Shown here: positions 1,829 to 34,980 of the stretch, one piece after another
Layout: every line of letters starts with the position of its first letter
Position numbering within the stretch: position 1 is the stretch's first letter
Source: Planctomycetota bacterium
GTDB taxonomy: Bacteria > Planctomycetota > Phycisphaerae > Sedimentisphaerales > Anaerobacaceae
NCBI GenBank assembly: GCA_012719085.1
Contig: JAAYBA010000486.1
Span: 1-35,691, forward strand
Direction of reading: 5' to 3'
DNA length: 35,691 nt
Notes under the pieces: generated by a model
Seen by the model: only the letters and a program-made list of their open reading frames with translations
The model's database searches: none
Told to the model about the DNA's origin: nothing
Translations under genes and position numbers: made by a program

Positions 1829-2752
1829 ATGAACGGCAAAATGGTCATGATTTTGGGCGTTACCGCCTCGGGCAAGGGGCGGCTGGCCTTCGAGCTGGCC
1901 CGGCAGATCGATGCCGAGATTGTCAGTATCGACTCGATGAAGGTCTACCGACGCATGGACGTCGGGACAGCCAAACCCTCTCCAGAGGCCCGAAAGCAGG
2001 TCCCGTACCACATGATCGACATCGTCGAGCCGAGTGAGTCATTCAGCGCCGGGCTCTTTCTGGAGCGGGCCTCGGCGGCGATCGATGAGATTCGAGGTCG
2101 TGGCAAGTCGGTGGTCGCCGTCGGCGGGACCGCCCTCTACAGCAAAGCCTTGCTCTACGGGCTCTTCGAAGGGCCCGCCGGCGACGAGCGGATTCGCGAC
2201 GAGCTGCGGGCCAGGGTCGAGTCGGAGGGGCCGGCGGCGCTGCACGCAGAGCTTTGCCGGCTCGATCCGGCGGCGGCCGATCGCATCAGCCCCAACGATG
2301 CCAAACGCATCGTTCGGGCCCTGGAGGTGCATCGGCTGACCGGCAAGCCCATATCGAGCCTGCAAAGGCAGTTCGATGCGGCACGCCCCGTGCAGAACTG
2401 GACGATCATCGGGTTGCGCCGAGAAAAATCGGTCGAGAGCGGGCGGATCAACGCACGCGTCAAGAGAATGGTCCAAATGGGCTTGGTCGAGGAGGTTCGA
2501 TCGCTGCTGGCCGAGGACAGACCGTTGAGCCCACAGGCTCGCTGCGCGATCGGCTACGCCGAGATGATCGAGCACCTTGAGGGCCGGCGGTCTGTCGATG
2601 AGGCTGTCGAACAGATCAAGAAGAACACGCGACGGCTCGCGAAAGGCCAGCGGACGTGGTTTCGGCGGTTCTCCGGCGTCGTCTGGATCGATGTCGGGGC
2701 CGATGAATCGGTTGAGAGCGTGCTCGACCGAGCGATGCAGCGGATCGACTAA
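1829..2752 (+). CDS. miaA: tRNA dimethylallyltransferase with atypical P-loop
   Basis: MiaA transfers a dimethylallyl group to N6 of adenosine-37 in tRNAs reading UNN codons. The ATG at 1829 is preceded by AGGA at 1821-1824 and gives 307 residues, the normal length. Family signatures are the P-loop region GVTASGKG (10-17), DSMKVYRRMDVGTAKP (about 36-51), PYHMID, GGTALY, the RALEVHRLTGKP segment, and the C-terminal TRRLAKGQRTWFRR. The oddity is residue 17: the Walker A Thr/Ser that coordinates Mg is glycine (codon ggg, 1877-1879), while everything around it is conserved. Either the family tolerates this in the lineage or activity is altered. The stop overlaps the stop of the convergent ATP-cone gene by sharing the bases ctaa. 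Isoprenoid substrate comes from the pathway of its divergent neighbour, a plausible but unproven link. Confidence 0.93.
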   Translation: MNGKMVMILGVTASGKGRLAFELARQIDAEIVSIDSMKVYRRMDVGTAKPSPEARKQVPYHMIDIVEPSESFSAGLFLERASAAIDEIRGRGKSVVAVGGTALYSKALLYGLFEGPAGDERIRDELRARVESEGPAALHAELCRLDPAAADRISPNDAKRIVRALEVHRLTGKPISSLQRQFDAARPVQNWTIIGLRREKSVESGRINARVKRMVQMGLVEEVRSLLAEDRPLSPQARCAIGYAEMIEHLEGRRSVDEAVEQIKKNTRRLAKGQRTWFRRFSGVVWIDVGADESVESVLDRAMQRID

Positions 2753-3330
2753 CGGGCGTGCAACTCGCGTTCGGCCCGGAGCATGGCGGCGGCTTCCCCC
2801 AGCACGAGCTGCTTGATCAGGCTCAGCGGGACCATGGTCATCTCCATGCGAAAGACCTTCTCCTCAACGCCGGAGGCCACCGCGCGGGCGATCCGGCGCG
2901 GCACGCCGAATCGGTCGGTCAGATCCCGTACGATCCGGGCCTTGTCCCAGGCGGTCCGTTCGGCGGCGCCTTCCGTCAGAAGGAGCTGCCGGGCGTCGGC
3001 AAAGTCCCGCATGTGCACCGCAAGGACTTCCGTTCGCGATCGCTTGAGCCGTCGTTCCAGGGCATGTCGGGCCAGCGCCAGCGCCGCCTCCTCATGTCCT
3101 GTCGCCGCCAGGATGGCCTTGATCATGGCAAGGATCTCGTTGGAGCTGACCGTGGCGCGACCATGCTTGTTGTACAGATAGAATGTAACGACCTCCGTCA
3201 GGTCTTCGGCCATGACGATGTCACCCTGCCCGGAGGCTGTCAGGGCGTTGTTGATCGCCCCGAGGACCTTGGTGTGCAGATAGGCCTCCGTGCCGCCATC
3301 GGCTTTGGTCACTCTCAACTGCCTGTTCAT
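2749..3330 (-). CDS. Stand-alone double ATP-cone protein next to nrdR
   Basis: This 193-residue protein has no catalytic domain that I can see. Residues 1-95 form an ATP-cone: RVTKADGGTEAYLHTKVLGA, then ALTASGQGD, then a helical part ending in LARHALERRLKRSR. ATP-cones bind ATP or dATP and set the activity of ribonucleotide reductases or of NrdR. The C-terminal half (about 125-190; TAWDKARIVRDLTDRFGVP, later LSLIKQLVLGEAA) resembles the second cone-like segment at the N-terminus of NrdD-type reductases. It lies 99 bases downstream of nrdR on the same strand, so the two are probably co-transcribed. Start ATG 3330 has GGAGG at an extended distance of 13 bases. Its role is inferred: a nucleotide-sensing partner of NrdR or of a reductase encoded elsewhere. 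The stop overlaps the miaA stop. Confidence 0.8.
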   Translation of the reverse strand: MNRQLRVTKADGGTEAYLHTKVLGAINNALTASGQGDIVMAEDLTEVVTFYLYNKHGRATVSSNEILAMIKAILAATGHEEAALALARHALERRLKRSRTEVLAVHMRDFADARQLLLTEGAAERTAWDKARIVRDLTDRFGVPRRIARAVASGVEEKVFRMEMTMVPLSLIKQLVLGEAAAMLRAERELHAR

Positions 3331-4002: not shown

Positions 4003-4047
4003 CCCCACATTTAGTTACGCATGTGATTGTAGCCTCAACATGTGGGG
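4003..4047. promoter_or_regulatory. Inverted repeat bracketing the nrdR -10 box, candidate operator
   Basis: CCCCACAT at 4003-4010 and ATGTGGGG at 4040-4047 are perfect 8-bp inverted arms 29 bases apart (37 bp centre to centre). One arm occupies the promoter spacer next to the -35 box; the other lies just after the expected transcription start. The placement fits a repressor that loops across or covers the promoter. The arms do not clearly match the published NrdR-box pattern, so the regulator is unknown. A stem-loop in DNA or RNA is a less likely reading given the long loop. Confidence 0.45.
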
Positions 4048-4053
4048 CGTCAA
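4026..4053 (-). promoter_or_regulatory. Promoter of the nrdR operon
   Basis: On the minus strand TTGACG (4053-4048) and TACAAT (4031-4026) are separated by 16 bp, each one base from consensus. Transcription would start near 4018, about 97 bases before the nrdR GTG. Confidence 0.7.
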
Positions 4054-6845: not shown

Positions 6846-7111
6846 CCGAGGCCGGGGGCGCACTGCGTGTTTGTAGGTAGGTTCCTGCCAAGTCCAGGAA
6901 AGAATCTTGTCTTTTCGACTAAGAGCTTGCCCCGAGCGCAGCCGAGTGGGGCGAAGCCCGCACGGAGAAATCTGGCCGAAGATAAGGCAGTGTCCCATTC
7001 GCAGCCAGATTCCTCCACTGCGCTGCGCTCCGGTCGGAATGACAAAGTCGATTGCAGAGCCCCCGTGGGGATCTACCTGCAAACACGCAGTGCACCCCGA
7101 GGCCGGGGGCG
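6846..7111. repeat. MITE-like element with inverted ends and flanking direct repeats
   Basis: Left (6860-6882) and right (7071-7093) ends are 23-bp inverted repeats matching at 21 positions. A 15-bp direct repeat, ccgaggccgggggcg, lies outside them at 6846-6860 and 7097-7111. The interior has a segment reading agattcctccactgcg followed by ctccggtcggaatgac (about 7007-7042), of a style I recall as a dispersed palindromic repeat in environmental bacterial genomes. No transposase frame is present. It sits between the divergent membrane-protein operon and ribE, and the ribE promoter begins 14 bases past its right end. A non-autonomous mobile element is the simplest reading. Confidence 0.6.
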
Positions 7112-29228: not shown

Positions 29229-29424
29229 CGAACCACGCCTTGGGCTGAATCATCAATAATCGATCATCAATAGGAACACGTCGATTCCGAGAGTGGGTTG
29301 GGCGGTCGCTCGGCTTCGCATCGTGCGAGGCCGAGAGGAAAGTCCGAGCAGGACAGGGCACGGTGGTGGCTAACGGCCACCGGGGGCGACCCCAGGGAAA
29401 GTGCCACAGAAAACACACGGCCGA

Positions 29425-29439
29425 TCCGCCTGTGGCGGA
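29425..29439 (+). repeat. Short palindrome inside rnpB, copy 1
   Basis: tccgcc-tgt-ggcgga, a 6-bp stem with a 3-base loop, sits in a peripheral part of the RNase P RNA. It has the same arms as the copy at 29565-29579. Confidence 0.6.
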
Positions 29440-29564
29440 GGCAAAGGTGAAAAGGTGCGGTAAGAGCGCACCGCGACGGCGGCGACGTCGTCGGCAGGGT
29501 AAACCCCACCGCCTGCAAGACCAAGCAGCCGGTCGGCTTCGGCCGCACGTGGCCCGCGTGCGAG

Positions 29565-29579
29565 TCCGCCGCAGGCGGA
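29565..29579 (+). repeat. Short palindrome inside rnpB, copy 2
   Basis: tccgcc-gca-ggcgga, with arms identical to the copy at 29425-29439 and only the loop different. This suggests one small repeat family has lodged twice in the variable hairpins of the RNA. Confidence 0.6.
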
Positions 29580-29726
29580 TCGGCCGGTGGGTAGGTCGCT
29601 TCCCGCTTCGGCGGGAGAGCCGGTCGGCAACGGCCGGTCCAGATAAATGATCGCCGCCCGTCGTCAGACGGGCACAGAACTCGGCTTACAGACCCACTCT
29701 CGGAATCAACGGATCGCCGGCAGGTG

Positions 29727-34770: not shown

Positions 34771-34843
34771 TACCCCCTAGGGGAGTCGAACCCCTGTCTC
34801 CAGGATGAGAACCTGATATCCTAGGCCACTAGACGAAGGGGGC
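34771..34843 (-). tRNA. tRNA-Glu (anticodon CTC)
   Basis: The minus strand folds as a standard 73-base tRNA. The acceptor 5' strand is GCCCCCT (34843-34837). The anticodon stem is TCAGG/CCTGG with loop TTCTCAT, placing CTC at positions 34-36, which reads GAG. The T arm is AGGGG-TTCGACT-CCCCT. The 3' acceptor strand is AGGGGGT followed by discriminator A73 at 34771, so the first pair is G1-U72. No CCA is encoded. It lies downstream of tRNA-Met, from which it is separated by a small hairpin. Confidence 0.95.
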
Positions 34844-34906: not shown

Positions 34907-34980
34907 TAGCGGCGGGTGGACTCGAACCACCGACCTTAGGCTTATGAATCCCACGCTCTAACCAACTGAGCTACGCCGCC
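34907..34980 (-). tRNA. tRNA with CAT anticodon, probably tRNA-Met
   Basis: The minus strand gives a 74-base tRNA. The acceptor 5' strand is GGCGGCG (34980-34974), the D arm is GCTC-AGTTGGTTA-GAGC, and the anticodon loop TTCATAA carries CAT. The T arm is GGTGG-TTCGAGT-CCACC, and the 3' strand is CGCCGCT with A73 at 34907. The first pair is again G1-U72, which distinguishes it from an initiator tRNA of the usual C1-A72 type. Elongator tRNA-Met is most likely; a lysidine-modified tRNA-Ile cannot be excluded by eye. No CCA is encoded. Confidence 0.93.

Follow-up and report, generated by a model that had tools for sequence, protein, structure and literature searches.

Why should two ATP-cones without a reductase be encoded directly behind nrdR? 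ATP-cones are known in ribonucleotide reductases, in NrdR and in a few kinases, and the usual view of NrdR is that it senses nucleotides unaided; we know of no free double cone. The question is raised by the window, a stretch of 35,691 nucleotides from a Planctomycetota bacterium of the class Phycisphaerae (contig JAAYBA010000486.1), the features of which are collected in Table 1. A sequence-only reading of this DNA had described a 193-residue protein with one clear ATP-cone, a second cone-like half and no reductase domain, and had proposed HMM searches against the ATP-cone and NrdD families, structure prediction and a survey of nrdR neighbourhoods as checks. Elsewhere in the window, a 244-bp element (6855-7098) with 31-nt inverted ends, 87% complementary, occurs in the genome in six near full-length copies at 76-100% identity and in many partial ones; it looks like a small non-autonomous mobile element.

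Table 1 Features of the window, with positions counted from its first nucleotide.
Feature	Position	Strand	Basis or remark
Free-standing gene for a double ATP-cone, 193 codons and stop	2749..3330	-	ORF, Pfam ATP-cone, structure models, dN/dS 0.14-0.25
Cone 1, residues 5-99	3034..3318	-	PF03477 match; K9, D11, G12, R93, R97 conserved (nucleotide site)
Cone 2, residues 100-192	2755..3033	-	Degenerate, without KxDG lid; hhalign, half-alone structure, conservation
nrdR, encoding the repressor (Zn-ribbon and ATP-cone), about 163 aa	3430..3921	-	TIGR00244 (159 bits), PF22811, PF03477
Promoter-like TTGACG-16-TACAAT, reading into nrdR and the cone gene	4026..4053	-	Match to consensus only; 1 site against 0.3 expected
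NrdR-box-like pair, outer half-sites CCCCACAT and ATGTGGGG, 31 bp between centres	4003..4047		Geometry agrees with the boxes of PMC12176259
Bacterial class A RNase P RNA	29290-29704	+	Rfam
tRNA gene	34771-34843	-	Rfam
tRNA gene	34907-34980	-	Rfam

The protein consists of two tandem ATP-cones. The ATG of its gene is preceded by a GGAGG at 13 nt. PF03477 matched residues 6-94 with 28.6 bits (Pfam cut-off 25.8, E 2.1e-6) and was found at E 0.01 or better in all 65 aligned relatives. PF13597 gave no match in Pfam and the frame stops after cone 2, so that the first cone and the lack of a reductase domain are both borne out by the HMM searches. Neither PF22811 nor TIGR00244 matched, indicating that the Zn-ribbon is absent as well. 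A Pfam search alone misses the second half, and a PDB sequence search with the single 193-residue protein returned no match. A weak match to Usp fell below the cut-off of that family and was not common to the relatives; this assignment was dropped.

Evidence for the second cone came from structure prediction. The whole protein was modelled by AlphaFold2 from 65 sequences with a pLDDT of 90.7 and a pTM of 0.78. In the model, residues 6-99 follow the order strand-strand-helix-helix-strand-helix-helix, and residues 101-192 the order strand-strand-helix-helix-strand-helix, with an extra helix (110-118) inserted between the first and second strand of the latter; this secondary structure is that of the ATP-cone fold, a four-helix bundle capped by a three-stranded sheet. 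The structural matches of cone 1 had Z scores of 13.9-12.9 and comprised modelled NrdR (13.9, 1.6 A over 87 residues), NrdB (13.3) and Pseudomonas aeruginosa NrdA (12.9). When residues 98-193 were modelled alone (pLDDT 90.8), the ten best matches were all cones of NrdR, NrdA, NrdB or NrdD, with Z from 8.8 to 6.6, a modest margin over unrelated helical proteins, which begin at 6.2. Both halves thus resemble ATP-cones above all else, and the cone-like second half of the earlier description held when modelled in isolation. A direct hhalign comparison of stand-alone cone 2 with stand-alone cone 1 failed (probability 0.7%). The homology of cone 2 rests instead on NrdD intermediates, in which cone 2 matches NrdD cone 1 with E 1.5e-5 and the NrdR cone with E 2.4e-5, on the alignment of stand-alone cone 2 in register on the NrdR cone by hhalign, and on structure, with which the succession of its strands and helices agrees. 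Over the whole length, the best Foldseek match was the doubly coned P. aeruginosa NrdA (5im3, 187 aligned columns), the N-terminus of which likewise carries two tandem cones with a degenerate second one. There, however, the cones are fused to a class I reductase, whereas here they are free and belong by sequence to the NrdD module.

The residues of cone 1 are consistent with a nucleotide site. K9, D11, R93 and R97, which we paired by hand alignment with K7, D9, R87 and R91 of P. copri NrdD, are kept in 61-65 of the 65 aligned relatives. In the P. copri enzyme, K7, R87 and R91 lie near the triphosphates and D9 is part of the lid (P. copri NrdD paper), and cone 1 therefore retains the lid and triphosphate residues. 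The arginine of its KRDG lid, R8, has given way to A, S or T in 61/65 relatives, and mostly His or Tyr occupies the position of the outer-site tyrosine; the replacement of R8 and the histidine at the outer site suggest that nucleotide binding may differ from that of known cones. Residue 67 (window positions 3130-3132), which we take to align with H59 of Escherichia coli NrdA, is H in 20 and F, L or Y in 45 of the 65 relatives, a difference that may alter ATP/dATP discrimination. In cone 2, W128 is present in 126/127 and E156 in 127/127 sequences drawn from three groups. We know of no nucleotide role for either residue. Free drift is ascribed to the inner cones of other reductases (PMC9669993); unlike them, cone 2 is held at these two positions, which suggests a contact surface.

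The arrangement of the locus points to expression together with the repressor. The start of nrdR was placed at a GTG on the basis of the frame and an AGGAGG, and a gap of 99 nt separates nrdR from the double-cone gene on the same strand. No terminator-like site was found in this gap by a simple scan, and with a promoter-like site 5' of nrdR the two genes are likely co-transcribed, as far as sequence features indicate. From the opposite side miaA converges on the double-cone gene, and the two genes share their end point. The NrdR-box-like pair overlaps the promoter-like site, and its spacing is that expected of two 16-bp NrdR boxes with a 15-bp linker, 31 bp from centre to centre (PMC12176259). 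Scored on sequence, a model of the box pair exceeded the 99th percentile of shuffles before nrdR in 69 of 76 loci. With a shuffle p of at most 0.02, the model also scored in 28 of 31 distinct loci upstream of the cone-less nrdJ, C179 of this genome among them; of the two results, that for nrdJ is independent, as the nrdR sequences had served as training set. Box-like pairs are found at both promoters, and by sequence the pair about 31 bp apart before nrdR marks its operon as a putative member of an NrdR regulon. No such pair was found at the cone-bearing NrdJ (C634) or the NrdD (C384) of this genome.

The linkage to nrdR proved stronger than could be known from a single stretch of DNA. From a scan of public species genomes, the best 80 of 117 relatives were taken, yielding 79 named loci, almost all titled Planctomycetota, Phycisphaerae or Sedimentisphaerales. 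The double-cone gene lay directly downstream of nrdR on the same strand in all 79 (from the best 80 of 117), as the sequence-only reading had placed it in the window, and also in 50/50 whole-genome loci, a set that overlaps the 79. The next gene, miaA, is often elsewhere in these 79 loci. Among genomes sampled from the same genus, family and order, 125 of 148 encode the protein, at identities from 93% down to about 38%, and 23 do not, and the frame is open in almost every genome that has it. The free form also occurs in families f13, f101 and f97 of the class, where 15 of 16 sampled loci adjoin nrdR. Pairwise dN/dS among close relatives was 0.14-0.25. A search of 11,776 ORFs from the collected loci revealed no fusion of NrdR with the double cone. 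The double-cone gene is no local remnant; it is kept under purifying selection across the class Phycisphaerae. A truncated reductase remnant confined to this genome, named beforehand as the result that would overturn the idea of a free two-cone protein, is correct only in its first part: the protein apparently descends from the N-terminus of a reductase, but it is conserved class-wide and under selection.

The reductase in question appears to be an NrdD, the anaerobic class III enzyme. A search of the phylum with the double-cone profile matched 202 of 391 genomes. In genomes from outside Phycisphaerae it mostly fell on the N-terminus of frames of 600-900 residues, with some of about 840 aa. 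These longer frames are NrdD, with nrdR directly before them. The cones of the stand-alone and nrdR-linked forms were aligned by hhalign with E 8e-14 for cone 1 and E 4e-19 for cone 2, and sequence comparison supports well that the free double cone and the NrdD N-terminal module form one family. The linked Planctomycetota NrdD thus shares with the free form the same double-cone module in the same place behind nrdR; the free form differs in lacking the catalytic barrel and the glycyl-radical domain and in forming its own tree group (support 100/99).

Two states of the linked NrdD were observed. In 18 sampled loci the body is intact, with a CCRL or YCSSHSL motif and, where the C-terminal end is covered, a CxxC...CxxC pair, with the R-x-x-G-Y motif in 11/16. 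In 45 sampled loci the body lacks the barrel cysteine motifs; the cones persist in all of these and adjacency to nrdR in 42. Such proteins, judged by their kept cones and lost catalytic motifs, are probably inactive as reductases, and we refer to them as dead NrdD. Of ten that were scanned with PF13597, six failed or gave no match and four (L144, L149, L152 and L237) were above the cut-off, though well short of the 383-432 bits that intact linked copies reach. The C-terminal CxxC pair is kept in four dead copies (L237-L239 and L284). The dead nrdR-linked NrdD-like set comprises L144, L149, L152, L162, L229-L248, L278, L280, L284, L285 and L287-L303. L237-L239 (genomes G252, G335 and G222) lie away from nrdR in the stretch examined and retain the C-terminal CxxC...CxxC, a different fate.

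Dead copies occur in more than one place on the unrooted trees, and NrdD decay appears to have occurred more than once. A single branch with support of 100/99, also on an unrooted tree, sets the free form apart, and an intact nrdR-linked NrdD persists in families f92 and f98 of the class Phycisphaerae. Since NrdD is spread widely and the free form is confined to a single class, we infer that the free form derived from NrdD and not the reverse. Descent and the linkage to nrdR are well supported, and in much of the class Phycisphaerae only the cones remain of the nrdR-linked NrdD.

Family searches provided an inventory of the other reductases in these genomes. Another large subunit (PF02867) was found in 23 of 24 genomes with a dead copy as against 7 of 14 with an intact copy (Fisher p 0.0017, a value that ignores kinship and depends on genome completeness for its absence calls), which may account for the loss of the catalytic part. 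Of 43 sampled genomes of the class, six have NrdD and all have a large subunit of class I/II type, and most sampled genomes with the stand-alone form have no NrdD and cone-less reductases only. The main reductase here is a class II NrdJ of 1024 aa (PRK06556, 1344 bits) without an ATP-cone. The same genome also encodes a cone-bearing class II NrdJ (L250, G000:C634) and a single-cone NrdD with an NrdG2-type activase (L251, G000:C384). In genome G213, a 339-residue frame (L262:1217-2233, minus strand) combines one ATP-cone with a P-loop domain of the AAA_33 type and resembles cone-bearing kinases. Three sampled f4 genomes have NrdR, a cone-less NrdJ and box-like sites at nrdJ but no double-cone protein, which argues that NrdR does not strictly depend on it; the f4 NrdR sequences, three only, revealed no tell-tale change at the interface.

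We consider it somewhat probable that the protein is a freed NrdD regulatory module, retained after loss of the catalytic part, which binds nucleotides and, as a partner of NrdR, adjusts the oligomeric state of this repressor and the repression it exerts. NrdR passes from an ATP-loaded dodecamer to a dATP/ATP-loaded, DNA-binding tetramer via cone-cone contacts (PMC9110341). On this model, the protein would act as follows. Cone 1 would most likely bind ATP or dATP, and the double cone would most likely dock cone-to-cone on the NrdR of its own operon, where a soluble protein of this kind could join or cap NrdR assemblies. Docking would shift NrdR between the DNA-binding tetramer and inactive larger oligomers and would thereby tune how strongly NrdR represses its own operon and the cone-less class II nrdJ; the box-like sites of the operon would make the double cone self-limiting. 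Because the three f4 genomes keep NrdR and box-like sites at nrdJ without it, the double cone would be a modulator of NrdR and not an essential part. NrdR itself has the ATP-cone fold and shares the operon, but it carries one cone rather than two and has a Zn-ribbon DNA-binding domain that the 193-residue protein lacks. Gene order favours NrdR as the partner, although linkage of co-regulated genes is not proof of physical contact.

The main rival, which we hold to be unlikely, is that the protein acts in trans as an activity subunit of the cone-less class II NrdJ, binding this enzyme and conferring dATP inhibition and ATP activation on it. The missing cone of the main NrdJ and the prevalence of cone-less reductases in stand-alone genomes agree with such a role, and a cone-less reductase in every genome examined around that of the window is compatible with an adaptor to a reductase. 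A cone can moreover act from a partner subunit, as in NrdB of Leeuwenhoekiella blandensis (PMC5794259), where it likewise sits on a polypeptide other than the catalytic one; that cone is nevertheless fused to a reductase subunit, and no reductase part is present here. Against an NrdJ subunit, the double cone adjoins nrdR and never nrdJ in the loci read, dead nrdR-linked NrdD are found alongside varied other reductases, f4 has a cone-less NrdJ and no double cone, and class II enzymes mostly lack cones (PMC9669993).

Slightly less probable again is a nucleotide sensor with another target, such as DNA replication, a kinase or nucleotide buffering, that is co-regulated with nrdR only through dNTP supply. 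The near-invariant W128 and the invariant E156 suggest a surface for another partner, but the linkage to nrdR persists through the enzyme, dead-enzyme and free forms (the neighbours checked being nrdR and miaA). That the gene is a decaying reductase fragment without function we regard as very improbable: its common family with the NrdD N-terminus and its absence from 23 of the 148 sampled relatives could be read in this way, but the dN/dS values contradict decay, as do the invariant residues in 65 sequences and a frame that stays open in nearly all carriers from several families of the class.

The ATP-cone, its doubled form and NrdR have all been described before, and a limited search of the open literature found no description of a stand-alone ATP-cone or of a dead nrdR-linked NrdD. 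The wider proposal, which we advance tentatively and with a little less confidence than the partnership with NrdR itself, is that an nrdR-linked reductase gene has repeatedly become a regulator in Planctomycetota, as a dead NrdD and then as a bare double cone that would be a subunit of NrdR and share in its sensing. An enzyme's allosteric domain would thereby have been built into the repressor of that enzyme's replacement. If true, a reductase-derived partner of NrdR would add a layer to dNTP control, and the locus would represent a rare, traceable case of an enzyme turned regulator of its own pathway, with the dead NrdD series as ready-made intermediates.
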